A stretch of DNA of 32,434 nt from Bordetella parapertussis (GTDB lineage: Bacteria > Pseudomonadota > Gammaproteobacteria > Burkholderiales > SG8-41). The DNA is taken from assembly GCA_945864585.1 (NCBI GenBank), contig CAMBCF010000057.1:1-32434 (forward strand), in the 5' to 3' direction. Position 1 is the stretch's first letter; every line of letters starts with the position of its first letter. This document shows, piece after piece, positions 214 to 29,858 of the stretch. Position numbers and translations under genes: made by a program. A model generated the notes under the pieces. The model was not told the origin of the DNA and did no database searches. It saw only the letters and a list, made by a program, of their open reading frames with translations.

Positions 214-513
214 ATGAGCGAAGCGAAGAAGCGCAAGGTCCACACGCCGGAGTTCAAGGCGAAAGTTGGTCTGGAGGCATTACGCGGGGCGAAGACGATC
301 AACCAGATTGGGCAGGATTACGATGTTCATCCGGTGCAGATCGGGCTATGGAAAAAGGAAATTCAGGCGCAAGCCAAAACACTGTTTGAAGGCAAACGCG
401 GCTCCAAGCCGGTGGCGGCGTACCGCGAGCCGGAGTTGCTGTATAGCGAGATCGGCAAACTGAAGGTGGAACTGGACTGGCTGAAAAAAAAGTCCGGGAT
501 CAGCCTGTCATGA
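214..513 (+). CDS. IS3-family transposase OrfA
   Basis: A 99-residue, basic, helix-turn-helix protein of the transposase_8 (IS3/IS911 OrfA) type. The segment around residues 10-50 (TPEFKAKVGLEAL, INQIGQDYDVHP) is the DNA-binding fold that recognises the element's terminal repeats. The C-terminal third (ELLYSEIGKLKVELDWLKKK) is a heptad-rich helix of the leucine-zipper kind used for multimerisation. The ATG at 214 follows a purine-rich stretch (GGGGAACGAAAAGAA). The stop overlaps the orfB start in an ATGA arrangement. Alone, OrfA usually acts as a regulator or accessory factor; fused to OrfB by frameshifting it forms the active transposase. Confidence 0.9.
   Translation: MSEAKKRKVHTPEFKAKVGLEALRGAKTINQIGQDYDVHPVQIGLWKKEIQAQAKTLFEGKRGSKPVAAYREPELLYSEIGKLKVELDWLKKKSGISLS
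486..492 (+). other. Programmed -1 ribosomal frameshift signal (A AAA AAG)
   Basis: Eight A's followed by G span 484-492. In the orfA frame this reads AAA AAA AAG, so 486-492 is the canonical slippery heptamer A_AAA_AAG of IS3-family elements. OrfB lies in the -1 frame, and after slippage translation reads VRDQPV and then the OrfB start Met without a stop, giving an OrfAB fusion. I did not analyse a downstream stimulatory structure. Confidence 0.8.
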
Positions 514-1520
514 TTCGCCAAGCGTGGATCGACAGCGAAGATTGCGTGAGCGTAGTTCAGCAATGCGCTCTGACGGGTGTATCGCGCGCCACGGTCTATG
601 CCCGGCGACAGCCCAAGCCGATAAATGAACTTGACCTACTGCTCAGCGGCCTGATCGACGAGGAATATACGCGGCACCCGTTCTACGGCAGCCGCAAAAT
701 GGTGGTCTTTCTGGGTAAGGCAGGCCACAGCGTCAATCGCAAACGCGTGCAGCGTCTGATGCGGCTGATGGGGCTGGCGGGTATGGCGCCGGGGCCGAAC
801 ACCAGCCGCGCGGCGCCGGCGCACAAGGTCTACCCCTACCTGCTGCGCGGCGTGCCCGTGGTCAGACCCAACCAGGTCTGGAGCACGGACATCACCTACA
901 TTCGCCTTGCGCACGGCTTTGCCTACCTGGTGGCGATTATCGACTGGTATTCGCGCCGCGTGCTCAGTTGGCAGATCAGCAACAGCATGGAAGCGCAATT
1001 CTGCGTCGATTGTCTGGAAGAGGCGTTGCGCACCCACGGCAGGCCGGAAATCTTCAACAGCGATCAGGGTTCCCAGTTCACCAGCGAAACCTTCACCGGC
1101 GTGCTCAACCGCGAGGGCATCGTTATCAGCATGGACGGGCGGGGACGCGCGTTCGACAACATCTTTGTCGAGCGGCTCTGGCGCAACGTCAAATATGAAG
1201 ACGTGTATTTGAAGGGCTACGCCACGATGGGCGAACTGATGATCGGCCTAGCCGAGTATTTCGTGTTCTACAACGGCGAACGCCCGCACCAGTCGCTGAA
1301 TAACAAGACGCCGAACGTCGTGTATCAAACTGCTGTCGGCGGCGGTGCGCTGATCGTGGATAAATTCCGCGGCAAGGTGGAACAAGCGTCCGTTTCGCTA
1401 TGCGACGGCGTTACTGATGTAACCGCAGAAACAAGATCAGAGTCAACAGCAAAGACCACAGCAAAGGCAAAACCGGGGCAGCGCCGTCCAGCTGCGAATG
1501 AAGTCGAACGTGTAACTTAA
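510..1520 (+). CDS. IS3-family transposase OrfB (DDE integrase)
   Basis: A 336-residue catalytic subunit. Residues ~10-100 form the HTH_21-type region (DEEYTRHPFYGSRKM, KRVQRLMRLMGLAGM). An rve/DDE integrase core follows, with visible catalytic acids in WSTDITYI (first Asp), IFNSDQGSQFTS (second Asp) and DNIFVERLWRNVKYE (Glu). The usual tail YNGERPHQSLNNKTP comes next, then an extended Ala/Thr/Lys-rich C-terminus. It cuts and joins the element ends, probably through a circular intermediate as known for the family. The ATG overlaps the orfA stop, and the main product is expected to be the OrfAB fusion made by frameshifting at 486-492. No inactivating change was seen. Confidence 0.93.
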   Translation: MIRQAWIDSEDCVSVVQQCALTGVSRATVYARRQPKPINELDLLLSGLIDEEYTRHPFYGSRKMVVFLGKAGHSVNRKRVQRLMRLMGLAGMAPGPNTSRAAPAHKVYPYLLRGVPVVRPNQVWSTDITYIRLAHGFAYLVAIIDWYSRRVLSWQISNSMEAQFCVDCLEEALRTHGRPEIFNSDQGSQFTSETFTGVLNREGIVISMDGRGRAFDNIFVERLWRNVKYEDVYLKGYATMGELMIGLAEYFVFYNGERPHQSLNNKTPNVVYQTAVGGGALIVDKFRGKVEQASVSLCDGVTDVTAETRSESTAKTTAKAKPGQRRPAANEVERVT

Positions 1521-7341: not shown

Positions 7342-9846
7342 CTAATTCCTCAAAGGCCTTCCCGTCTTAAGCATATGCTCAATCCGCGCCTGGGTTTTTT
7401 CCGTGGCGAGCAATTCCATGAAATGCCGGCGTTCAAGATCAAGATACCATTGTTCATCGACCAGGCTGCCGGCCTCGATATCACCGCCGCAGATCACGGT
7501 GGCGACCTTGCAGCCGATCCAATGATCGTGCTCGGAAATATGCCCGCCCGCCAGCATGTTCTCGAGCACCGTGCGGATGGTAGCAATCGCACTGCGCCCC
7601 GCCGCCGGTATGGCAGTCGCCCGCAGCGGTGGACGATACCCCCCAGCCGCCAGTGCACGCACTTCGGCCTTGGCAATCTCCAATAACTCGAAACGGTTCA
7701 TCACCACTTTATCGGTGGCGCGCAGGTAGCCGATGTCGCGTGCGTGTTCGGCGCTGCGCCCGACCTCGGCCATCGCCACCAACCTGAAATACTTCTGGAT
7801 AAACGCCGAAGTGTCGCCGCCCTTCGCGTCGGCTACCGCGCGCATCGCGAACTCCTTGCAGCCGCCGCCCGCGGGCAACAGGCCGACGCCAACCTCAACC
7901 AGGCCGATATAACTTTCCAGCGTCGCCACCGCGCGATCGCAATGCATCACAAATTCGCAACCACCGCCGAGCGCAAACCCGTCAACCGCGGCCACGGTTG
8001 GCGTCATCGAATACTTGAGCGCTTGCGTGGTAATCTGGAATTGCTCAACCAAATGCTCAACTTCGCCGAGCTTGCCCGCCATCAACTGATCTGCCACACC
8101 CAACTGCCGCGCGGCCTTCAGCGCCAGTGATTCGGCTTCTTTCCTGAACGATTTGAAAAGCCTGCTCATCGCCGATGGCGTGGCTGCGGACCGTGCCCCG
8201 CCCGCAGGCGTCTTTTTCAGATTTGCACCAACAGAGAACGGCGCCTCGGTCTGCCAAACCACCAGCCCCAGGTAGTTTTCTTCGGCTACTTCTATAGCCT
8301 GCTGCACACCTTCCAGCACATCATCGCCAATGGCGTGCATACGGCTTTTGAAACTGACTATGGCAATGTCGTCGCCGGTGTGCCAGCAGCGCACGCCATC
8401 GGTCTCGAATATCGTTTCACCGTATTTGCGTTCCTCGTCCAACAGCTTGTCGGGAAATGGCTGGCGCCCGTAGACCGGCAGCGTCGAGCGTGCCTGATAG
8501 TTGTTAGCTGACGGCGCGAACGAGCCTTGTGGCGTATGCACACCTGCACGCGCTGCATCCGTTGCCCACGCCGGCAACGCCGCGTGTGCCATCGATTTTC
8601 CCGTCGCGGCATCTTCGTTAATCCATCTCGCCACCTGCTGCCAGCCCGCGGCTTGCCAGATTTCAAATGGCCCCATGTCCCAACCGAAACCCCAGCGTAT
8701 CGCGAAATCCAGGTCACGCGCATTGTTGGCGATGGCGCCCAGATGCACGGCGCAATAGTGAAACGAATCGCGGTATATCGACCACAAGAACTGCGCCTGC
8801 GGATGCGTGCTGGCGTGCAACTGCGCAAAACGCTCAGCAACATTCCTGTTCTTGAGAATTTCCACCACGCCGTCGTCCGCCACACCGTCCGAGACGCGGT
8901 AAGTATTTTGTTTTAAATCAAGCACTTGTATATCGTTACCCATCTTCTGATAAACACCGCGCTTGGTCTTTTGTCCCAGTGCGCCCTGATGGATTAAGGA
9001 TTTCAGCCACGCTGGTACCGCGTAGTACTTGTGCCACGGATCTCCGGGCAGCGTGTCTTTCATGGTGTTCACGACATGCGCGAAAGTGTCTAGGCCCACC
9101 ACATCGGCAGTGCGGAAAGTGGCACTCTTAGGGCGGCCGATCAGCGAGCCGGTCAGTGCATCCACGGTATCAAAACCGATACCCAGGCGCTCGGCATGAT
9201 AAATCGTCGCCAGCATCGAAAACACGCCCACCCGATTGGCGATGAAGTTCGGCGTATCTTTGGCGCGAATCACGCCTTTGCCGAGCGTGGTGACCAGGAA
9301 TTTTTCGAGATTGTCGAGGATAGCGGCGTCGGTTTCCTTGCAGGCGATCAACTCCACCAGATGCATGTAGCGCGGCGGATTGAAAAAATGCACGCCACAA
9401 AACCGATGCTGCAATTCAGCCGGAAATGCATCCGCCAGTTGGTTGATCGACAGCCCCGAAGTGTTGCTCGCGAATATGGTATGCGGCCCCAGATGCGGCG
9501 CGACCTTTTTGTAAAGCTCGGATTTCCAGTCCATGCGCTCGGAAATGGCTTCGATCACGAGATCGCATTCCTTCAGCCGTTCAAGATGCTGAGCGTAATT
9601 GGCCGGACCGATGAAGCCCGCGCGCGCCGCTGTGGCCAGCGGACTCGGTTCGAGCTTGCGCAGATTGTCCACCGCCTTCAGCACATTGCCGTTGGGATCA
9701 CCCTCTTTCGCCGGCAGTTCAAACAGGATGACTTCGACGTTGGCGTTGACGAGATGCGCAGCGATCTGCGCACCCATCACGCCGGCGCCCAGAACGGCGG
9801 CTTTACGCACCAGAAACGGCGAAGCCGAGGGAGAAGCAGATGACAT
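7342..9846 (-). CDS. 3-hydroxyacyl-CoA dehydrogenase / enoyl-CoA hydratase fusion (FadB/FadN-like)
   Basis: An 834-residue bifunctional beta-oxidation enzyme. Unlike E. coli FadB, the NAD-dependent dehydrogenase comes first (Rossmann motif VLGAGVMGAQIAAHL at residues 18-32, then ASNTSGLSI and GVHFFNPPRYMHLVEL). The crotonase domain is C-terminal (~480-720; GFALGGGCEFVMHCDRAVA, then GLVEVGVGLLPAGGGCKEF). This order matches the FadN-type family. It hydrates 2-enoyl-CoA and oxidises the 3-hydroxyacyl-CoA to 3-ketoacyl-CoA, the substrate of the downstream thiolase. The GAGG-like purine content before the ATG at 9846 is weak, but the Rossmann fold begins at residue 14, so the start is well constrained. 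Confidence 0.95.
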   Translation of the reverse strand: MSSASPSASPFLVRKAAVLGAGVMGAQIAAHLVNANVEVILFELPAKEGDPNGNVLKAVDNLRKLEPSPLATAARAGFIGPANYAQHLERLKECDLVIEAISERMDWKSELYKKVAPHLGPHTIFASNTSGLSINQLADAFPAELQHRFCGVHFFNPPRYMHLVELIACKETDAAILDNLEKFLVTTLGKGVIRAKDTPNFIANRVGVFSMLATIYHAERLGIGFDTVDALTGSLIGRPKSATFRTADVVGLDTFAHVVNTMKDTLPGDPWHKYYAVPAWLKSLIHQGALGQKTKRGVYQKMGNDIQVLDLKQNTYRVSDGVADDGVVEILKNRNVAERFAQLHASTHPQAQFLWSIYRDSFHYCAVHLGAIANNARDLDFAIRWGFGWDMGPFEIWQAAGWQQVARWINEDAATGKSMAHAALPAWATDAARAGVHTPQGSFAPSANNYQARSTLPVYGRQPFPDKLLDEERKYGETIFETDGVRCWHTGDDIAIVSFKSRMHAIGDDVLEGVQQAIEVAEENYLGLVVWQTEAPFSVGANLKKTPAGGARSAATPSAMSRLFKSFRKEAESLALKAARQLGVADQLMAGKLGEVEHLVEQFQITTQALKYSMTPTVAAVDGFALGGGCEFVMHCDRAVATLESYIGLVEVGVGLLPAGGGCKEFAMRAVADAKGGDTSAFIQKYFRLVAMAEVGRSAEHARDIGYLRATDKVVMNRFELLEIAKAEVRALAAGGYRPPLRATAIPAAGRSAIATIRTVLENMLAGGHISEHDHWIGCKVATVICGGDIEAGSLVDEQWYLDLERRHFMELLATEKTQARIEHMLKTGRPLRN

Positions 9847-12264: not shown

Positions 12265-13050
12265 TCATTTTCCCGAAAACACAGCCTTGCGCTTCTCCAC
12301 AAATGCCGTCACACCCTCGGCAAAATCCGGCTGCGCCGCACAGCGCGCAAAGGCCTCTGCCTCAGCCACCAGATGCTTAGCAAGTTCTTGATTCATTGAT
12401 GCATTTACCAACGCCTTGGTCTCGGCGTAAGCGCCTGCCGGACCCGCCGCCAGGCGTTGTGCGAGTTTTAGGGTTGCGGTTGCTAGCGCCGCTGCGGCGA
12501 CCACCCGGTTGATTACGCCCAGCGCCTGCAAAGTAGCCGCGTCAACCACATCGGACAGCAGCAGCAACTCCATCGCTTTTTGATAACCCGCGAGACGCGG
12601 TAAAAACCAGCTCGCACCCCCGTCAGGGCTGGTAGCGATGCGGCTGTAGGCCATGCTGAACTGCGTGTCATCTGCGGCGACTATCAGATCGCACGCCATC
12701 ATGATGCTCATGCCCGCCCCCGCCACCGCGCCATGCACGCTGGCGATCACCGGTTTGGGCGCGCGGCGCAAGGCGAGAATGCCGCGATGCAATTCAGCCG
12801 TGAGATCGAGCACTTTGCCGGAGATATTCGCCAACTGGGCTTTGAATGACCCCACATCACCGCCCGCCACAAACGCCGGCCCCGCACCACGCAGCACCAC
12901 CACCCGCGCCTGCGTGTCCTGTTCCGCGCGCTCACACAAGTCACGAAATACCCTGATCGATGGCGGATCGAGCGCATTCATCACCTGCGGCCGATTGAAG
13001 GTGATGGTCGCTATGCCATCGGCGACGGCATATAAAATAAGCTCGCTCAT
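12265..13050 (-). CDS. Enoyl-CoA hydratase/isomerase family protein
   Basis: A 261-residue crotonase-fold protein. The oxyanion-hole segments are visible (AGPAFVAGGDVGSFK around residues 56-70 and SVHGAVAGAGMSIMMACDLIVAADD around 104-128), followed by the family-typical FSMAYSRIATSPDGGASWFLPRL. The second glutamate of classic hydratases is not obvious in SPDGGASW, so an isomerase or PaaG-like role is possible. It is 29 bp downstream of the FadE-type gene and upstream of the acyl-CoA ligase. It probably serves side-chain or unsaturated substrates alongside the hydratase domain of the FadB-like fusion. Confidence 0.9.
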   Translation of the reverse strand: MSELILYAVADGIATITFNRPQVMNALDPPSIRVFRDLCERAEQDTQARVVVLRGAGPAFVAGGDVGSFKAQLANISGKVLDLTAELHRGILALRRAPKPVIASVHGAVAGAGMSIMMACDLIVAADDTQFSMAYSRIATSPDGGASWFLPRLAGYQKAMELLLLSDVVDAATLQALGVINRVVAAAALATATLKLAQRLAAGPAGAYAETKALVNASMNQELAKHLVAEAEAFARCAAQPDFAEGVTAFVEKRKAVFSGK

Positions 13051-19353: not shown

Positions 19354-19869
19354 ATGGCACGCATACCTTATCCAGATGTCAACGCAAACGCGGAAGTCAT
19401 CGCACTGGCCGCGCAGATTCGCAAGGAGCGCGGCCGCCTGCACAATTTGTATCATCTGCTGCTCAACAGCCCGCCGGTGACGCGCGGCTGGCTAAATCTG
19501 CTCACCGCCGTTCGTCAGCAGTGCAGCCTTGCCGGCAAGTATCGCGAGTATGCGATTTTGCGTATCGCCATCATCAACGGCGCTGATTTCGAATACACCA
19601 GTCACATACCGTTTGCGCTCGAGGAAGGCATACGTCAGGAACAAATCGATGCGCTTAACGCGTGGCAAAATTCGCCAGTCTTTAATGCCACCGAGCGGGC
19701 GGTGCTGGCCTACACCGACGCCATGACCGAGGACATCCAGGTGCCGGATGCGGTATTTGACGCGCTAAGACCGCACTTCGATGCGCGCGAGTTGACCGAG
19801 CTTACTGTGACGATTGCAACCTACAATCTGGTATCGCGTTTTCTCGAAGCGCTGCAGGTCGATCATTAA
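19354..19869 (+). CDS. Carboxymuconolactone decarboxylase-family protein (AhpD-like fold)
   Basis: A 171-residue all-helical protein of the CMD/AhpD superfamily. LNLLTAVRQQCSLAGKYREYAILRIAIING (residues ~48-78) and the following DFEYTSHIPFALEEGI match the core. The Cys-x-x-Cys redox pair of true AhpD is absent: EYTSH replaces it. A peroxidase role is therefore unlikely, and a decarboxylase or isomerase-like role on small acids is more plausible. The ATG at 19354 has GGAG eight bases upstream; the frame is open further upstream, but those codons overlap the divergent promoter region. It precedes the catabolic operon on the same strand, separated by a palindromic element. Confidence 0.85.
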   Translation: MARIPYPDVNANAEVIALAAQIRKERGRLHNLYHLLLNSPPVTRGWLNLLTAVRQQCSLAGKYREYAILRIAIINGADFEYTSHIPFALEEGIRQEQIDALNAWQNSPVFNATERAVLAYTDAMTEDIQVPDAVFDALRPHFDARELTELTVTIATYNLVSRFLEALQVDH

Positions 19870-19919: not shown

Positions 19920-20093
19920 CTATGCACACATCTCCCGTAGCCCGGAAGGAGTCCCAAGGACGTATTCCGGGAAGAAGCACCGCGCATCGACACCACGCGA
20001 GTCCATCTACCCACACTTCCCCGGAATACGGCCATGAAAAGCCATGGCCTTCTTCCGGGCTACGTGCTCTCACACTCAATGTTGTGTGCATAG
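19920..20093. repeat. Nested palindromic element (MITE/REP-like)
   Basis: The outer 11-bp arms are perfect inverted repeats, CTATGCACACA (19920-19930) and TGTGTGCATAG (20083-20093). Inside, 19936-20064 forms a second palindrome. It runs from CGTAGCCCGGAAG to CTTCCGGGCTACG, with inner matches GTATTCCGGG and CCCGGAATAC. No coding frame is supported in it. The form resembles the dispersed GTAGCCCGG...CCGGGCTAC intergenic repeats of proteobacteria. It separates the CMD-family gene from the BKACE operon. Confidence 0.75.
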
Positions 20094-20115: not shown

Positions 20116-21051
20116 TTGGCCGAAGCCCGTAAAGTAATCATCACCTGTGCCGTCACCGGTTCAATACATACTCCGACCATGACGCCCTATTTGCCGATAA
20201 CGCCAGCCGAGGTTGCAGCCGGCGCGATAGGCGCCGCTGAGGCGGGTGCGGCGATTCTGCATCTGCATGCGCGCGATCCGCTCGATGGCCGGCCCACGCC
20301 CGACCCCAAGGTGTTCATGCAGTTTCTGCCGCAGATCAAGGCGGGCACCGACGCGGTGATCAATATCACCACCGGCGGCGGACACGGCATGACGGTGCAG
20401 GAACGCCTTGCCGCGCCGCTGATCGCCAAGCCGGAAGTGTGTTCACTCAACATGGGATCGATGAATTTCGGCCTCTATCCTAACCTCGACAAGCGCCGCG
20501 AGTGGAAGCACGAGTGGGAGCCGCAATATCTGGAGGCCAGCCGTGATTTCATTTTTCGCAATACATTCAAGGACATAGAATTTACGCTCAAACACCTCGG
20601 CGAAGACTGCGGCACACGCTTTGAATTCGAGTGTTACGACATCGGGCACCTCTACAACCTCGCGCACTTTCTCGAGCGCAAGCTGGTCAAACCGCCGCTA
20701 TTTGTACAAACCATTTTCGGCATCCTCGGCGGCATCGGTGTGCATACCGAGAATCTGATGCACATGAAAACCATCGCGGATAAACTTTTCGGCGATCAAT
20801 ACCTGTGGTCGATCCTCGGCGCCGGCCGTCACCAGATGGGATTGGTGACGATGGGTGCGCTGATGGGCGGCAATGTGCGCGTGGGCCTTGAAGACAGCAT
20901 CTACCTCGGCAAAGGCGAACTCGCCAAGAGCAACGCAGCGCAGGTGGCGAAGATACGCCGCATCCTCGAAGACCTGTCGCTAGAAATCGCGACCCCGGCT
21001 GAGGCGCGCAAGATGCTGGCGCTGAAAGGCGGGGACAACGTCGCGTTCTAA
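20116..21051 (+). CDS. 3-keto-5-aminohexanoate cleavage enzyme family protein (BKACE, DUF849)
   Basis: A 311-residue TIM-barrel enzyme. BKACE members condense a beta-keto acid with acetyl-CoA and cleave it to acetoacetate plus a new CoA ester, using a divalent metal. The metal-binding pair is His49 and His51 in ILHLHARDP, and the later acidic ligand corresponds to Glu259 in VRVGLEDSIY. INITTGGG and SLNMGSMNFG are family signatures. The start is a TTG at 20116 with a well-placed AGGAG (20105-20109); it aligns with the usual N-terminus, whereas an upstream ATG at 20044 lies inside the palindromic repeat. First gene of a four-gene operon. The substrate cannot be read from the sequence. Confidence 0.92.
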   Translation: MAEARKVIITCAVTGSIHTPTMTPYLPITPAEVAAGAIGAAEAGAAILHLHARDPLDGRPTPDPKVFMQFLPQIKAGTDAVINITTGGGHGMTVQERLAAPLIAKPEVCSLNMGSMNFGLYPNLDKRREWKHEWEPQYLEASRDFIFRNTFKDIEFTLKHLGEDCGTRFEFECYDIGHLYNLAHFLERKLVKPPLFVQTIFGILGGIGVHTENLMHMKTIADKLFGDQYLWSILGAGRHQMGLVTMGALMGGNVRVGLEDSIYLGKGELAKSNAAQVAKIRRILEDLSLEIATPAEARKMLALKGGDNVAF

Positions 21052-21069
21052 GTTCAAGGAGAAAAATCC

Positions 21070-22710
21070 ATGCAAGGCACCATGATGAATTTTCCGCTGA
21101 CGCTTGCGCACGTGCTCGAGCGCGCGGGCCGCCTGTTTGGCAATTCGGAAATTGTGTCGCGTCTGCCGGATCGCTCGTTGCACCGCCAGAGCTATGGTGA
21201 TTTTTACCGGCGTGCGTGCGCACTGGGCGCTGCGCTGCAAAAGCTCGGGCTGAAAAAGGGTGACCGCGTGGCGACGCTGATGTGGAATCACTACGCGCAT
21301 CTGGAGGCCTACTTTGGCATCCCCTGTGCGGGCGGCGTGCTGCACACCCTGAACCTGCGGCTGCATCCCGACGATATCGCCTATATTGCCAATCACGCCG
21401 AGGATCGATTTCTGATCGTCGATGATGTGCTGTTGCCGCTGCTGGACAAATGCCACGCGCAGGTCAAGTTCGAGCGCGTTGTGGTGGTGCCATTAAGCGG
21501 CAAACCCGTGCCGACCGCCTACGACGATTACGAAAAGCTGATTGCAGATGCGCCCCGGTTCGAGATGCCGCAGCTCGACGAGAACGACGCGGCAGGCATG
21601 TGTTATACCTCCGGCACCACCGGCAAACCGAAAGGCGTGGTGTATACGCACCGTTCCATCGTGCTGCACGCGCTGGCAACCTCCACCGTGGATGTGCTGG
21701 GACTCAGCAATCGCGATTCGCTGTGTCCGATAGTGCCGATGTTTCATGTGAATGCATGGGGATTGCCGTTTTCGGCGGTGATGGTGGGTGCAAAAATCGC
21801 GTTTCCCGGGCCGCATCTGGATGCAGCAAATCTGCTGGATCTCTACCAAGCGGAAAAAGTTTCGATGTCGGCGGGCGTGCCGACAATCTGGATGGGCATG
21901 TTGCAAGCGTTGCAAAAGGAACCGCAGCGCTGGAAACTGGCTTCGGGATTGCGCATGGTGTGCGGCGGCGCTGCCGCGCCGGAATCGATGATTCGCGCAT
22001 TTGATGCGTTTGGATTGCGCGTCATTCACGGCTGGGGCATGACCGAGACTTCGCCGCTGGGCGCAGTCAATTACATCAAGCGTGAATTGGATGGACTGAC
22101 CACGGATGAGCAGTACGCGGTGCGTGCAAAACAGGGCGTGCCGCCGCCGTTTGTCGAACTGCGTACCATGGCCGAAAACGGCGAAGCGCCGTGGGACGGA
22201 AAAGCGATGGGGGAGTTGCAGATACGCGGGCCGTGGGTGGCGGCGAGTTATCACCAGTTGCCGTCCGAAGCGGATAAGTGGACCGCAGACGGCTGGTTTT
22301 GCACCGGCGACATCGCGATCATCGATGCGCACGGTTACATGAAGATCGCCGATCGGGTGAAAGACCTGGTTAAATCAGGCGGCGAGTGGATCAGCTCGGT
22401 TGATCTGGAAAACGCCCTGGTGGCCCATTCCGCGGTACTGGAGGCCGCCGTCATAGGCGTGCCGCATCCCAAATGGGACGAGCGCCCGTTGGCCGTGGTG
22501 GTATTAAAACCGGGCCAGAGCGTGAGCGCCGATGCCTTGCGCGAACATCTTGCGCCGCAATTCGCGAAATTCTGGCTGCCGGATGCCGTGATGTTCGTCG
22601 ACGCCATACCAAAAACCTCGACCGGCAAGATGTTGAAGGCGGCACTGCGTGAGCAATACAAAGCGCAATTTAGTGGAACAAACGCAAGTGTCGACTTGGA
22701 GAATCGCTAA
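21070..22710 (+). CDS. Acyl-CoA ligase (AMP-forming, medium-chain/AlkK-like)
   Basis: A 546-residue ANL-superfamily ligase that activates a carboxylic acid to its CoA thioester. The P-loop YTSGTTGKPKGVVYTHRS spans residues 179-196. Further motifs are GWGMTETSPLGAV, the hinge GWFCTGDIAIIDAHGYMKIADRVKDLVKSGGEWIS (shown in parts: GWFCTGDIAII, DRVKDLVKSGGEWIS) and the catalytic C-terminal Lys in TSTGKMLKAALRE. The pattern is that of AlkK-type medium-chain or aryl-acid ligases. A strong AAGGAG precedes the ATG at 21070, 18 bp after the BKACE stop. It probably activates the product or precursor of the BKACE and bicupin reactions. It differs clearly from the long-chain ligase at 10395-12209. Confidence 0.93.
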   Translation: MQGTMMNFPLTLAHVLERAGRLFGNSEIVSRLPDRSLHRQSYGDFYRRACALGAALQKLGLKKGDRVATLMWNHYAHLEAYFGIPCAGGVLHTLNLRLHPDDIAYIANHAEDRFLIVDDVLLPLLDKCHAQVKFERVVVVPLSGKPVPTAYDDYEKLIADAPRFEMPQLDENDAAGMCYTSGTTGKPKGVVYTHRSIVLHALATSTVDVLGLSNRDSLCPIVPMFHVNAWGLPFSAVMVGAKIAFPGPHLDAANLLDLYQAEKVSMSAGVPTIWMGMLQALQKEPQRWKLASGLRMVCGGAAAPESMIRAFDAFGLRVIHGWGMTETSPLGAVNYIKRELDGLTTDEQYAVRAKQGVPPPFVELRTMAENGEAPWDGKAMGELQIRGPWVAASYHQLPSEADKWTADGWFCTGDIAIIDAHGYMKIADRVKDLVKSGGEWISSVDLENALVAHSAVLEAAVIGVPHPKWDERPLAVVVLKPGQSVSADALREHLAPQFAKFWLPDAVMFVDAIPKTSTGKMLKAALREQYKAQFSGTNASVDLENR

Positions 22711-22737
22711 TTGAACTGCTCAAGGAGAAAATCAGTC

Positions 22738-23874
22738 ATGGCACTAACCCCGATCCGCAGAGTAGTCACCGGCGACGACGCGCATGGAAAATCAAAAGTC
22801 GTTTGGGATGGTCCCTCGCCCGGCACACATGAAGCCAATTTCAACGGCAGAGGCCATACCGATTTCTGGGTGTGGCGCGAAACGCCGGCGCCGCTCGATG
22901 GCAAGGAAGATGCCGGCACATGGGACGACGAGTTCCCCAATCCGGTCGGCGGCGGTCATCAACGCGTGGTGCATTGGCTGGCGAAGACGGCCGAGTCTCC
23001 ACCTAACGATCCCTACAAAGCGCCGGAGCCGCACGGCCGCACCTGGGATCGCGGTGGCGGTAACCAATACAATCGCTCCTACATGCATAAAACCAAATCC
23101 GTCGACTACGGCATCATGATTGCGGGTGAACGCGTGATGGAGCTCGACGACTGCACGCTCACGCTTAAACCCGGCGACATTGTTATCGACGTCGGCGCGT
23201 GGCACCTGTGGGACAGTTCAAGCATGGGTTGCATGATGGCGTTCGATATGTTCGACGCCGAATTCGCCGATGGCCCCGCAGGCACCGTGCAGGGCAACGA
23301 CAAGCCGATGCGCGCGCCGCAAAACCAGCAACTCCCGCCGGGCGTAAAGCCGCAGCGCCGTATCGTCGCTGTCGATCGTGTAGCAGGTAAATCGAGTCTG
23401 GTCGGCGACGGCCCGTCCCCGGATGTGCGCACCGATCCCGCGCGGCCGGGTTTTGCCCTGCAGCGCATGTGGGTGGTCGATAGCGCGCCGGCAAAACTCG
23501 TTTTCGAGACGCTGCACCTGCCCCATGTGATCCAGCCGCCTGCCCAGGGTTCGGTACTGAACGTGGTAACGTTTCCGCCCGACGCCGCATGGCAGGGCAA
23601 AGTAGGCGCAAGCGAAGTCGCCGCGTATTTCAAGTCGGTGGGCGCGCCCGGCGCATCAACCTACTCTGCGCAGGCGCCGCATCCCTATATGCAAAAAACC
23701 CGCACCCTGGATTTGTGTATCGTGTTGGAGGGTGAGATTGTGCTGGTGCTCGACACGCAGGAGGTCCCAGTCAAGGCCGGGGAATTCATCGTGTTGCGTG
23801 GCTCCAACCATGCCTGGAGCAATCGCTCGGGCAAGCCTGCTGTGGTATCTATTGCATCGCATGGTGCGAAATAA
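22738..23874 (+). CDS. Tandem bicupin protein (duplicated cupin domain)
   Basis: A 378-residue protein made of two related halves. Each begins with the same block (PIRRVVTGDDAHGKSKVVWDG at residue 5, PQRRIVAVDRVAGKSSLVGDG at 205) and ends in a cupin barrel (YMHKTKSVDYGIMIAGE, residues 115-131; YMQKTRTLDLCIVLEGE, 317-333). Candidate metal ligands in the first cupin are His117, Glu131 and His156. In the second, His117 is replaced by Gln319, while Glu333 and His358 (SNHAWSNRSGK) remain. Single-domain relatives are common uncharacterised cupins; a dioxygenase or decarboxylase-type role is inference. AAGGAG precedes the ATG at 22738, 27 bp after the ligase stop. It is soluble, with no signal peptide. 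Confidence 0.85.
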   Translation: MALTPIRRVVTGDDAHGKSKVVWDGPSPGTHEANFNGRGHTDFWVWRETPAPLDGKEDAGTWDDEFPNPVGGGHQRVVHWLAKTAESPPNDPYKAPEPHGRTWDRGGGNQYNRSYMHKTKSVDYGIMIAGERVMELDDCTLTLKPGDIVIDVGAWHLWDSSSMGCMMAFDMFDAEFADGPAGTVQGNDKPMRAPQNQQLPPGVKPQRRIVAVDRVAGKSSLVGDGPSPDVRTDPARPGFALQRMWVVDSAPAKLVFETLHLPHVIQPPAQGSVLNVVTFPPDAAWQGKVGASEVAAYFKSVGAPGASTYSAQAPHPYMQKTRTLDLCIVLEGEIVLVLDTQEVPVKAGEFIVLRGSNHAWSNRSGKPAVVSIASHGAK

Positions 23875-23899
23875 CGATGGTCAACTTACTGGAGATATT

Positions 23900-24958
23900 A
23901 TGAAATCAATCAATCGTCGTGCCGCAGTGGCGCTAGCCATGGTTGCAGGCATTGCAGCCGGCAGCGCGTTTGCGCAACAGCCGCCCGCCAAAAGGGATTT
24001 CGATGCGGAAATCAGCGCTGCGCTGGCATCGGCAAAATCCGCCGCTGGATTTGAATTTTTAGGTACTCTGGTCAGAACCTGCCTGGTGCCACAGAGCGGT
24101 GGTGAAGACACCCGCGACATTCCTGCGCCGTACGTAACCAATCCCGCCAAAGCGCCGCCGCGCGATTCCTGGTACACCGAACCGGCCAGGGTGTTTGACA
24201 ATCTCTACTTTGTCGGCGGCAAAATTCACTCGGCGTGGGCGATGACCACCCGGGAAGGCATCATCCTGTTCGACACGATTTACCCTTACAACTCCGAAGA
24301 ACTGATCATCGGCGGCATGAAAAAACTCGGTCTTGATCCAAGGGACATCAAATATCTGATCGTCTCGCATGCGCACGGCGACCACATCGGCGGCGCCGAG
24401 ATGCTGCAAACCCGCTATGGCATGCGTGTGGTCATGGCGGGGCCTGATTGGGATTTGGTCGAAAAATATCCGAACCGCTACAAGACCATGGCGCCCAAGC
24501 GCGATATCGTCGCCACCGACGGCATGAAGCTCACGCTCGGCGAAAGCACGGTGACGATCACCCACACCCCCGGCCATACACCGGGCACGCTGTCTTATAC
24601 CTTTCAGGTATTCGATAAAGGCAGGCCGGTCAACGTTGCTTACTCAGGCGGCACTGCGTTTAATTTCGTCAACAACACGCCCGATCCGGGCATCAGGAAT
24701 TTTCAGATTTATATCGATTCACAACGGCGCTTCGCCGCCAATGCAGCCGCCACCGGCGCGACCGTACTCATGTCGAATCACTCCGAATTTGACATCGCAG
24801 ACAGCAAAAATAAAATGCTCGCTGCGCGCGGCAATGGCCCGCATCCGTACGAGAACGGCGCTGATGCCGTACAGCGTTATTTCAGGGTGATGCAGGGGTG
24901 TGCGCGGGCAGCGCAGATCAAGCTGGAACAAAAACAGGCAGAATCTGCCAAGCCGTAA
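23900..24958 (+). CDS. Exported metallo-beta-lactamase-fold hydrolase (subclass B3-like)
   Basis: A 352-residue protein with a signal peptide (residues 1-25, ending GIAAGSAFA-QQ), so probably periplasmic. The zinc motif SHAHGDHIGG gives His157, His159, Asp161 and His162. His226 in THTPGHTPGTLSY and a later His in MSNHSEFD complete a B3-like set, while the bridging Asp of glyoxalase-type members is replaced by Gly in YSGGTAF. Homologues include B3 beta-lactamases and many unassigned hydrolases; a lactonase or esterase acting on an imported compound fits the operon better than antibiotic resistance. GGAG lies six bases before the ATG at 23900, 25 bp after the bicupin stop. Last gene of the operon. 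Confidence 0.88.
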   Translation: MKSINRRAAVALAMVAGIAAGSAFAQQPPAKRDFDAEISAALASAKSAAGFEFLGTLVRTCLVPQSGGEDTRDIPAPYVTNPAKAPPRDSWYTEPARVFDNLYFVGGKIHSAWAMTTREGIILFDTIYPYNSEELIIGGMKKLGLDPRDIKYLIVSHAHGDHIGGAEMLQTRYGMRVVMAGPDWDLVEKYPNRYKTMAPKRDIVATDGMKLTLGESTVTITHTPGHTPGTLSYTFQVFDKGRPVNVAYSGGTAFNFVNNTPDPGIRNFQIYIDSQRRFAANAAATGATVLMSNHSEFDIADSKNKMLAARGNGPHPYENGADAVQRYFRVMQGCARAAQIKLEQKQAESAKP

Positions 24959-24981
24959 GCACACAACCCCAAGAACATTTC

Positions 24982-25055
24982 GACAGGATAAACAGGACTC
25001 ACAGGATAAAACCTCCTTCTGGTCTATCCTGTTCATCCTGTAAATCCTGTCTATC
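24982..25055. repeat. ACAGGAT repeat cluster (inverted)
   Basis: Three spaced ACAGGAT/ACAGGAC units at 24982-25010 face three ATCCTGT units at 25023-25054 across a short spacer, so the region can fold back on itself. It lies between two convergent genes. Clusters of this ACAGGAT...ATCCTGT kind recur in intergenic regions of many bacteria; a role as bidirectional terminator is possible but unproven. Confidence 0.65.
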
Positions 25056-25128
25056 GATGTTCAAGACGATCTGCCATCGCTGTTGATGCGCTACCGTCGT
25101 CACCGGCATCCTGGCCGACGGTCGCCAC

Positions 25129-26109
25129 TCAGTGCTTCGGCATCTTCGCGTCCTGCGCGACTTTCGCCCACTTGATGAGATCAACAGCGATCATCTTGCG
25201 AATTTCGGCGGGACTGCGAGCTTCGACCTCTGCGCCTTCGGCAGCGAACCGCTTTTCGATTTCGGGACGCTTGAGTATGGTCGCAACTTCGGCGTTGAGT
25301 TTGTTGATTACAGCTACTGGCGTGCCGCCCGTCGCCGCCCATGCCCACCAGATCGACGCTTCGTAACCCGGCATTCCCGCCTCGGACACGGTGGGCAGCT
25401 CGGGCATGACCGCAAGGCGCTTGGCGCTGCCGCTCGCCAGCGCCTTGATCTTCCCGCCACGCAGATACGGACCCACCGTCGGAATTGTCGCTACAGCCAT
25501 GTGCGCGCTACCTCCCGTCACATCAATCAGTGCCGGGGCGCCGCCCCTGTAGAGCGCGATGACCGCATCGAAGCCGGCCTGGTTACGGAACATTGCCGAC
25601 ACAAAGTGCATGAATCCGCCTGCCGAAGCCATGGTGATGTAGTTGGGCTTGGATTTGCCGAGCGCTACCAGTTCCTTTATCGAGTTAACCGGCAGCGATG
25701 GCCCGACGATAATCAGCACGGCCCCGCGGCCCAGCGTTGCAACAAAATCAAAGTCCTTGATGGGATCGTACGGCAACTTGTTGATCACCGCCGGATTCAT
25801 GGTGAACGCGGTCGAAGCCATCAGCATGGTGTAGCCGTCGGGTGCCGCGCGCGCGACGATTTCGGTGCCGATCATGCCTTCCGCCCCCGGCCGGTTGTCG
25901 ACCACCACCTGAGCGCCCAGACGTTCACCCAGTTGGCTGCCGATGTAGCGGGCAAAGATATCGTTGCTGCCGCCGGGCGCCTGCGGCACGATCAGCCGGA
26001 TCGGCTTGGAGGGGAAGTTCGCATCGGTAGCTGCCGCCCGTTGCGCCGCACACACGCCGGGCAGGGATGTCAGTATCAGGATCACGCTCGCTGCAAAACT
26101 CGCCTTCAT
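25129..26109 (-). CDS. Bug-family tripartite tricarboxylate transporter substrate-binding protein
   Basis: A 326-residue periplasmic receptor with a signal peptide (MKASFAASVILILTSLPGVCA). The mature start is typical of the family: FPSKPIRLIVPQAPGGSNDIFARYIG, with the ligand-contact loop PGGSND. VVVDNRPGAEGMIGTEIVARAAPDGYTMLM and PELPTVSEAGMPGYEASIWWAW follow, both hallmark segments. Bug proteins capture small carboxylates for TctAB-type carriers or act in signalling; no tctA or tctB is in the window, as is common for orphan Bug genes. The ATG at 26109 has AAGGAG just upstream. The frame is open for 90 further codons upstream but the signal peptide fixes the start. It is divergent from the dehydrogenase at 26398. 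Confidence 0.93.
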   Translation of the reverse strand: MKASFAASVILILTSLPGVCAAQRAAATDANFPSKPIRLIVPQAPGGSNDIFARYIGSQLGERLGAQVVVDNRPGAEGMIGTEIVARAAPDGYTMLMASTAFTMNPAVINKLPYDPIKDFDFVATLGRGAVLIIVGPSLPVNSIKELVALGKSKPNYITMASAGGFMHFVSAMFRNQAGFDAVIALYRGGAPALIDVTGGSAHMAVATIPTVGPYLRGGKIKALASGSAKRLAVMPELPTVSEAGMPGYEASIWWAWAATGGTPVAVINKLNAEVATILKRPEIEKRFAAEGAEVEARSPAEIRKMIAVDLIKWAKVAQDAKMPKH

Positions 26110-26397
26110 GGGTCGCTCCTTTGGTAAATCAGCCGTTCGGTACAGTGTAACGTGACACTCAGTTGCGCGTGGAAGTATGGCATCAAATCCCGGCCGCTTA
26201 CAAATGTGCGCCGGAATCGACGCAAGGCTATCATGACGTACCGGCGCGAAAACCGGCGAAGTATTGCGCTCGCAGAGAACAGCCGGGGCGTTGTTGGTTC
26301 GGGACGGCAGCGTTAGAATCAAGCCGGACTTGCGGCATCTGCGCACTGCAGCGCGGAACGCATCAAGAAAATTCAGCACGATTTTTAAGGAGTGGTC

Positions 26398-28563: not shown

Positions 28564-29733
28564 TTAACCGGCATTGCCTGCAGTATCGTTGATCCCGCGC
28601 TGCCACGTCGAAGGCTTGATGCCCACGCGATTGGCCGCCCGTTTTCCCAGCCAATATCCCAGCGACTGCCCCACATTGGCAAAGGGCGACTCCACCTCCA
28701 GCTTCTGCGCGGCGTCTATCGGCCAGTTCGGGTTGTGCAAAAATTCGCGCCCGAGCGCCACCAGATCCGCGCCGCCCGAACGGATGATTTCTTCGGCCTG
28801 ATCGGCGTGGATGATCATGCCCACGGCCATGGTTTTAATATCCGCGCCGGCCCTGATAGCCCGCGCATAAGGCACCTGATAGCCATAGCTCGGCGCGGCA
28901 TCTGCCGTGCTGGCATCGGACATGCCGCCTGCACTGCAATCGATCACATCCACACCGTGCGTTTTGAGCACGCGCGCTACGGCACTGCTGTCGTCAGTGC
29001 TCCAGCCCGCTTCGTCCACTGCCGACATGCGCAGAAACAGCGGTTTATGTTCCGGCCAGTACTTACGCACTTCGCACACCACCTCGATCGGGAAACGCAT
29101 GCGTTTTTCGGGCGTGCCGCCGAATTCGTCGCTGCGCTGATTGGCCACCGGCGACAAAAATTGATGCAGCAGGTAGCCGTGCGCACCGTGGATTTCCAGC
29201 ACGTCGAAGCCGGCTTCATCGGCGCGTCGTGCCGCCTGCCCCCAATTCGATATCGCTTCCTGTATGTCGTCGTGCGTCATCGCGCGCGGCACCGCGTATT
29301 TGCTGTTAAACGCAACCGCGCTCGGCGCAATCAGTTCCCATTCTTCGCCATGGTCCACTCCCGGACAACTTGCCAGCGGCGCGCGCCCTTCCCACGGCAC
29401 GCTACGGCGCGCCTTGCGCCCCGAATGGCCGAGTTGCAGCGCCGGCACCGCGCCGTTGCGCCTGACCAGATCGGCGATGCGCTTGAACGGCGCGATGAAA
29501 TCGTCTTTCCACAGCCCCAGATCGCGCGGCGTGGAACAGCCGCGCGGATCGACCTTGGTGGACTCGACGAACACCAGCCCGGTGCCGCCGGCGGCAAACT
29601 TGCCGTAATGCATGAGATGCCAGTCGTTGACGTGGCCGTTGTCCGCGCAATACTGCAACATCGGTGACAGAACAATACGATTCTTCAGCGTAACGCCGCG
29701 TATTTGCAGCGGCGAAAACAATTGGGCTTCCAC
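28564..29733 (-). CDS. NADH:flavin oxidoreductase / Old Yellow Enzyme family (YqjM/NamA-like)
   Basis: A 389-residue FMN-binding TIM barrel that would reduce activated alkenes such as enones with NAD(P)H. The N-terminus LFSPLQIRGVTLKNRIVLSPM is standard. The substrate-anchoring His pair is in EIHGAHGYLLHQFLSP and the C-terminal FMN-phosphate region in ADLVALGREFLHNPNWP. At residue 26 the flavin-tuning Cys of YqjM (SPMCQYSA) is Leu here (SPMLQYCA), with a Cys three residues later. I chose the GTG at 29733 because it aligns with family N-termini and is preceded by AAGGA; an open extension of 41 codons upstream shows nothing conserved. It is 125 bp downstream of the deacetylase gene on the same strand. 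Confidence 0.92.
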   Translation of the reverse strand: MEAQLFSPLQIRGVTLKNRIVLSPMLQYCADNGHVNDWHLMHYGKFAAGGTGLVFVESTKVDPRGCSTPRDLGLWKDDFIAPFKRIADLVRRNGAVPALQLGHSGRKARRSVPWEGRAPLASCPGVDHGEEWELIAPSAVAFNSKYAVPRAMTHDDIQEAISNWGQAARRADEAGFDVLEIHGAHGYLLHQFLSPVANQRSDEFGGTPEKRMRFPIEVVCEVRKYWPEHKPLFLRMSAVDEAGWSTDDSSAVARVLKTHGVDVIDCSAGGMSDASTADAAPSYGYQVPYARAIRAGADIKTMAVGMIIHADQAEEIIRSGGADLVALGREFLHNPNWPIDAAQKLEVESPFANVGQSLGYWLGKRAANRVGIKPSTWQRGINDTAGNAG

Positions 29734-29858
29734 TACATTTTCCTTCGCAATTGATAAACCGGTGATTAGTTTTAATACCGAGTATGGGTATGATTGTTGA
29801 ATTGTCGCATAATCGCTGTTTTCTGCGCTGCACGCCCGCCCATGCAGTGTGGACAAAC

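Follow-up and report, generated by a model that had tools for sequence, protein, structure and literature searches.

We have examined a group of genes in a 32,434-nt stretch of Bordetella parapertussis DNA (contig CAMBCF010000057.1 of assembly GCA_945864585.1), referred to here in its full length as the window; G and L numbers are our own designations for genomes and loci, and the window's genome is G000. Four genes follow one another on the + strand and encode a beta-keto acid cleavage enzyme (BKACE; 20116..21051, 311 aa), an AMP-forming acyl-CoA ligase (21070..22710, 546 aa), a bicupin (22738..23874, 378 aa) and an exported metallo-beta-lactamase (MBL)-fold hydrolase (23900..24958, 352 aa), and a gene for a CMD-family protein (19354..19869, +, 171 aa) lies upstream. 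The intergenic gaps are 18, 27 and 25 nt, and a GGAG ribosome site can be seen by eye ahead of each of the four starts, as a sequence-only reading of the window had said; Pfam and NCBIfam agree with the domain identities it gave. The BKACE starts with TTG, and this start is supported by an ATG in the same codon at L054, L055 and L180. Since a promoter and terminator scan gave sites no more numerous than in shuffled sequence, it is the spacing that argues for co-transcription of the four genes. BKACE-ligase-bicupin-MBL is a real catabolic operon centred on the BKACE, as had been claimed. Judging from sequence comparison, the operon has a mosaic composition, its genes having been acquired and shed individually, and it brings known kinds of enzyme into a new arrangement of limited spread rather than representing a conserved unknown pathway.

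The BKACE matches family PF05853 (348.7 bits) and, over residues 2-311, passes the NCBIfam model NF053538 for 3,5-dioxohexanoate:acetyl-CoA acetone transferase (533.6 bits vs a cut-off of 430), and it stays below the model for the KCE of lysine fermentation (NF052387, 232.3 bits vs 382). It has H49 and H51, an HxH that we take to be the zinc motif, and Y174, which aligns with Tyr173 of PdKce. The window BKACE is thus predicted to be a kind of enzyme that already has a name, with an activity assigned by the NCBIfam model. Its relatives in the PDB are 3e49, 3e02 and BKACE15 of Paracoccus denitrificans (8rio/8rip; also 9HNF), the last of which is of the same subfamily, matches over nearly its full length (E 8e-118) and shares the same Tyr. 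BKACE15 is the best-studied relative, and PMC11961710 calls its physiological role unknown and points to aromatics from its context; that context is known from the paper's remark on aromatic degradation, whereas the activity of the window BKACE is a prediction. The earlier suggestion of an undescribed pathway therefore holds in part, in that BKACE15 has no settled physiological role in print, but the window BKACE itself has a named activity. A second, distant BKACE is encoded in the window's genome (L002, G000 C209:2348-3187, 161.8 bits).

Relatives of this BKACE in named genomes number at least 584, and we inspected the loci of the best 80, many of which are short, counting only matches of more than 80 bits. 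The bicupin adjoins the BKACE in two of these loci (L054, L055), a close ligase in two (L053, L081), the MBL in one (L053) and the CMD gene in three (L053, L055, L081); 76 of the 80 show no bicupin, MBL or CMD gene in the stretch covered. Conservation of the gene set elsewhere, which the sequence-only reading had named beforehand as a test of its proposal, was accordingly not seen, other than partially at L053 and L081. Close homologues were also sought in 74 genomes of the same bacterial family (E thresholds of 1e-100 for BKACE and bicupin, 1e-80 for the MBL and 1e-220 for the ligase) and were present in 10 for BKACE, 45 for the bicupin, 15 for the MBL and 30 for the ligase. All ten BKACE loci, the window included, were read with the same limit of 80 bits, and the window alone has the complete set. 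G267 (L053) has CMD-BKACE-ligase-MBL and G264 (L081) has CMD-BKACE-ligase, interrupted by a contig end, with BKACEs that are 99% identical to that of the window; the G264 assembly contains no MBL at E <1e-80 and no bicupin above 62%. CMD-BKACE-bicupin is present in G229 (L055) and G233. In G260 (L054) a contig begins with BKACE-bicupin, so that the upstream side is not visible; the ligase of this genome is encoded elsewhere, and a close MBL is lacking. In G261 the BKACE is frame-broken.

These counts bear on the possibility that the four genes form one linear pathway for one compound, in which the MBL would open a ring or ester in the periplasm, the bicupin oxidise or decarboxylate, the BKACE cleave and the ligase activate. 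A single operon with tight spacing is what such a pathway would be expected to have. In addition, the last bicupin codons persist at L053 between ligase and MBL (12540-12640), read on from the ligase gene, and from this 3′ relic it is very likely that the L053 lineage formerly possessed the whole five-gene group and that a deletion then removed the bicupin, which implies that CMD, BKACE, ligase, bicupin and MBL stood together before the loss. However, the set is complete in only one of the ten BKACE-bearing genomes, the MBL lies near a BKACE in only two of the 15 MBL genomes, and orthologues of the ligase are found elsewhere in nine other genomes that were read, so that the assignment of the four genes to one pathway is not upheld and we consider a single linear route quite unlikely.

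What the neighbourhood analysis of the BKACE does recover, in place of the four-gene unit, is a smaller unit, CMD-BKACE-bicupin, and parts of the outer locus. The smaller unit is intact at L055/L179 and at L180; the upstream side of L054 is not visible, and at L187 (G206) a decayed BKACE remnant (9123-9578) lies between intact CMD and bicupin genes. CMD-BKACE-bicupin is the older core, which two other genera keep intact and a third has in decayed form. In ten family loci with a bicupin at least 76% identical, four have an intact BKACE (which in the window comes with the ligase in between), one has a decayed BKACE and in five none was seen, and a CMD gene lies upstream in five; in G260 the upstream side is cut off by the contig start, and at L189, which has no BKACE, only 1 kb upstream is covered. 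At L184 (G203) the CMD gene leads straight into the bicupin gene. Another three close bicupins from the same order (L033-L035) were seen with neither BKACE nor CMD, whereas the bicupin gene of L042 (54-56%) is immediately preceded by a CMD-like gene (37%). For forty bicupins of greater distance, the surrounding 3.4-10 kb contain no BKACE, ligase or close MBL and a partial CMD in one case. Gene identities and order, conservation, losses and modularity are direct observations at these loci. A frame-broken BKACE is found at L183 (9055-9986). The open-access literature that we searched gave no account of this gene set and no match for a pyrone lactonase.

The CMD-family protein (PF02627, 49.6 bits) falls below the cut-off of both NCBIfam models that it touches. 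Its E80 and H84 are invariant in eight sequences, and this pair presumably stands where peroxidase-type members have two cysteines. The CMD gene is directly 5′ of the BKACE gene at L053, L055, L081 and L180. The spacer between the two genes is 246 nt in the window and 140 nt at L081, but just 54 nt at L053 and 10 nt at L055, which shows that CMD has historically been part of the same unit as BKACE. The spacer in the window contains a 130-bp repeat (19936..20065, no strand assigned) that has inverted ends (by eye) and was recognised from sequence matches in the window's own genome, where scoring 40 of 54 candidates gave 28 matches, the copy in the spacer among them, mostly with 89-95% identity.

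The ligase, which has the Pfam AMP-binding and C-terminal domains, passes the NCBIfam subfamily model PRK06187 (575.9 bits vs a cut-off of 476) and remains below the 3-methylthiopropionyl-CoA ligase model PRK07008 (NF005426; 638 bits vs 822). Nine orthologues from other genomes (L247-L255, 70-87%) all lie away from BKACE, bicupin and MBL, and an AidB-like acyl-CoA dehydrogenase gene adjoins the orthologue in three of the six that were probed (L250, L252, L253). At L180 an AidB-like gene is located about 3 kb behind CMD-BKACE-bicupin and is followed by a 57-residue ligase fragment at the contig end.

For the bicupin, Pfam Cupin_2 scored the C-terminal lobe alone, and the assignment also draws on an AlphaFold2 model (mean pLDDT 82.1, pTM 0.86) and on matches to cupins in the PDB. 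The fold matches of the model are tied among many cupins, quercetinase included, and the nearest PDB sequence is 3es1, a cupin with no assigned function. H117, K118, T119, D123, Y124 and H156 in the N-lobe and Q319 and H358 in the C-lobe are invariant in 20 bicupins. The lobes were compared with the metal site of three His, or three His and a Glu, of beta-diketone- and quercetin-type cupin dioxygenases. Since they lack the HxH that we take to be the usual cupin motif, the metal site, if there is one, would be unusual. A Bug gene occurs within 500 bp of 28 of 40 bicupin genes, as compared with 25 among 130 genes of other kinds from ten related loci; this association is weak, because the control loci are non-random and TctC/Bug receptor genes are abundant in the window's genome, a 5.0-Mb assembly in which scoring 150 of 568 candidates gave a minimum of 150. 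Open-access literature on the cupin StrC, bicupins and diketone dioxygenases offered no lead for the role of the bicupin.

The MBL-fold protein (Pfam Lactamase_B) has an N-terminus that by eye resembles a signal peptide. Six positions, H157, H159, D161, H162, H226 and H294, are invariant in 11 sequences and are, we assume, the zinc-ligand positions of B3 enzymes, so that the site would be complete. Its best sequence match is BJP-1 (B3), and its best fold matches are a HARLDQ-type MBL and BJP-1. It shares with the subclass B3 metallo-beta-lactamases BJP-1 and L1 the fold and all zinc ligands; in contrast to them, its match starts at residue 93, with about 90 residues preceding, and its gene has catabolic neighbours. 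It is below the subclass B3 beta-lactamase model NF033105 (132.8 bits vs a cut-off of 240). We inspected all 15 close-MBL loci of the family, and a BKACE is nearby in two, whereas seven have a copy of an old yellow enzyme (OYE) with 80% identity or higher no more than about 5 kb from the MBL. That the MBL carries out the first step of the pathway, as formerly proposed, is doubtful, given that it travels with OYE more than with BKACE. Most likely, the MBL belongs with the downstream Bug/OYE/amidohydrolase locus and joined the operon secondarily. Behind the MBL gene there is an imperfect repeat of CAGGAT-like units (window 24978-25060, by eye).

The wider locus described earlier, with CMD upstream and, on the downstream side, an OYE, a 2-hydroxyacid dehydrogenase and a pair of TctC/Bug receptors, consists of real genes whose domain calls hold, and Bug and OYE recur in relatives. 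Bug receptor 1 (25129..26268, - strand, start uncertain, PF03401) is part of the downstream frame and is retained at L053, L177 (same contig as L054), L184, L192 and L193. The YqjM/NamA-like OYE (28564..29787, - strand, PF00724, 250.7 bits) is below the NamA model cut-off (359.1 bits vs 431), and a polysaccharide-deacetylase-family gene and an M24 gene follow behind this block. Upstream, a - strand block with thiolase, 3-hydroxyacyl-CoA dehydrogenase, AMP-binding and acyl-CoA dehydrogenase domains is mostly retained at L053 and L081. A transposase with rve and HTH_21 domains, presumably of IS3 type, is encoded at window 510-1520.

In related genomes the downstream genes form part of a recurrent frame with, according to Pfam, an amidohydrolase (PF04909), Bug, a second amidohydrolase (PF07969), OYE, TauD and MmgE/PrpD. 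Counting our five genes, the slot ahead of this frame holds the MBL alone at L192 and L193, CMD-bicupin at L184 and BKACE-bicupin at L177, where the frame is visible as far as OYE. All five genes precede a reduced version of the frame in the window, a partial frame stands behind CMD-BKACE-ligase-MBL at L053, and L163 and L194 have MBL-OYE-TauD-PrpD. Such varied subsets in one slot (L192, L193, L184, L177 and the window), together with the loss of genes singly, might mean that the locus is an opportunistic cassette, a single induced site at which enzymes from various small-acid routes replace one another and share no pathway. We think this rather unlikely, though deserving of more weight than a single linear route, because CMD, BKACE and bicupin occur together in three genera (in the window with the ligase between them), and L179 and L180 keep CMD-BKACE-bicupin outside the frame.

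To place the BKACE functionally, the genes flanking it were listed for the 80 loci and labelled mostly by eye, with nine proteins checked with NCBIfam. The gene 5′ of BKACE is of the 3-hydroxyacyl-CoA dehydrogenase type at L069, L076 and L078 (no model over its cut-off) and an SDR at L130 (Paraburkholderia, 67% BKACE). At L061 (2141-5803) the BKACE lies between a PHA depolymerase, which comes before it, and both 3-oxoacid CoA-transferase subunits, which come after it, all over their NCBIfam cut-offs; at L078 it is followed by an acetoacetate-CoA-ligase-like protein that scores under the cut-off. L065 and L070 resemble L061 by clustering. The sister BKACEs L181 (80%) and L182 (77%) of the same bacterial family have a neighbouring gene of PF04199, which we take to be the isatin-hydrolase 'cyclase' family. 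In a quick BKACE tree of 85 rows, with labels that we assigned, support from one method (SH-aLRT) and two sequences omitted (the broken BKACE of L183 and the distant second BKACE L002), the window clade of seven rows (SH-aLRT 100) nests in an 18-row clade (97) that includes five dehydrogenase-linked rows (L073, L076, L069, L092, L078) as well as L181 and L182. The SDR-linked Burkholderiales rows (L118, L129, L130, L132) form a different clade, and the CoA-transferase-linked L061, L065 and L070 fall outside the 18-row clade. The dehydrogenase, SDR, CoA-transferase and depolymerase neighbours suggest, by analogy, that a source of keto acid precedes BKACE and an activator of acetoacetate follows it.

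On this basis we tentatively favour, at somewhat less than even confidence, a mosaic lower pathway centred on a BKACE that cuts a neutral C5-C6 beta-keto acid. The Zn- and acetyl-CoA-dependent BKACE would convert such an acid into acetoacetate and an acyl-CoA, the substrate most likely being 3,5-dioxohexanoate (triacetate) or a close analogue, e.g. 3-oxohexanoate. From its position directly after BKACE, by the slot logic of the sister loci, the ligase most likely activates acetoacetate, which it would turn into acetoacetyl-CoA for thiolysis; the order of steps previously put forward is doubtful for the same reason. CMD and bicupin, as recurrent partners of this BKACE clade, are likely makers of the keto acid, and would fill the place of the dehydrogenases and cyclases beside some sister BKACEs. 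The MBL would be a separate periplasmic zinc hydrolase. The substrate and the roles of ligase, CMD, bicupin and MBL are inferred.

The substrate might instead be a sugar-acid-like keto acid such as the 2-deoxy-3-keto-ribonate of oxidative deoxyribose catabolism. According to PMC6365646, BKACE or SDR mutants of Pseudomonas simiae fail on deoxyribonate, the operon includes a lactonase, and the BKACE and SDR gene types matter in Paraburkholderia bryophila too. L130, with its SDR directly upstream of BKACE, would fit this, but it is only a candidate for the published cluster, the SDR-linked Burkholderiales BKACEs sit in a different clade, and no SDR is present in the operon gene list or was found in the window by the L181 SDR probe (E 1e-10). 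A deoxyribonate-type substrate therefore seems improbable.

A parallel to the neutral keto-acid route that we favour is the triacetate acetoacetate-lyase module of phloroglucinol degradation (PGR-DPGC-TfD-TAL), in which a BKACE is likewise fed by a ring-opened cyclic diketone: according to PMC10470551, dihydrophloroglucinol cyclohydrolase belongs to the isatin-hydrolase 'cyclase' family and its partner BKACE, which is not BKACE15, cuts triacetate. The resemblance extends to the PF04199 neighbours of L181 and L182. Unlike that module, the window operon was found to have no cyclase or SDR; conversely, the module as described includes neither CMD nor MBL, and the main text of PMC10470551 does not mention a cupin. 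The L181 cyclase probe finds no phloroglucinol-type cyclase in the window at E 1e-10. A further comparison is offered by the Methylobacterium pca pathway, which presumably includes a CMD-type step. In its gene cluster a DUF849/BKACE gene stands in place of PcaIJ, a role proposed in PMC8963497; that BKACE is of the beta-ketoadipate group, whereas the window BKACE fails the 3-oxoadipate model NF053568 (155.9 bits vs 350).

Several observations weigh against the neutral keto-acid route. G265, G257 and G248 carry a close BKACE without any of the partner genes. L053 keeps its BKACE after the loss of the bicupin, and half of the ten close bicupin loci show no BKACE, so that neither BKACE nor bicupin needs the other. 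The name attached to NF053538 is a single one covering a promiscuous family, and the PHA-depolymerase neighbour at L061 would point to simple 3-oxo acids more than to triacetate; the L061 context suits common 3-oxo acids derived from storage polyesters no less than a diketo acid. No model specific for acetoacetate is passed by the ligase, and with cupin lobes that depart from the usual motif, dioxygenase chemistry is only putative for the bicupin. The operon has no dehydrogenase or cyclase, and homologues of the L181 cyclase are located elsewhere in the window's genome (73, 54 and 32%). Two of these, at G000 C43:27098-28063 (73%) and C19:16800-17774 (54% to the L181 PF04199 protein), could act in trans as the ring-opening step.

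A more specific version, which we regard as very unlikely, is that CMD-BKACE-bicupin serves the aerobic breakdown of cyclic 1,3-diketones or 2-pyrones, e.g. triacetic acid lactone, by a route not yet described. The exported MBL would then open the lactone, CMD and bicupin would yield a 3,5-dioxo acid, BKACE would cut this acid with acetyl-CoA and the ligase would activate the acetoacetate. If true, the route would be a counterpart, for substrates without charge, of the beta-ketoadipate pathway and would assign a gene to lactonase activity of the triacetic acid lactone type, for which we know of no gene. In any case, the BKACE subgroup, whose role is called unknown for its best-studied member in PMC11961710, gains a small set of partners: a keto-acid source that precedes BKACE, for which CMD, the bicupin and the MBL are the three candidates in this clade, and an activator of acetoacetate that follows it.

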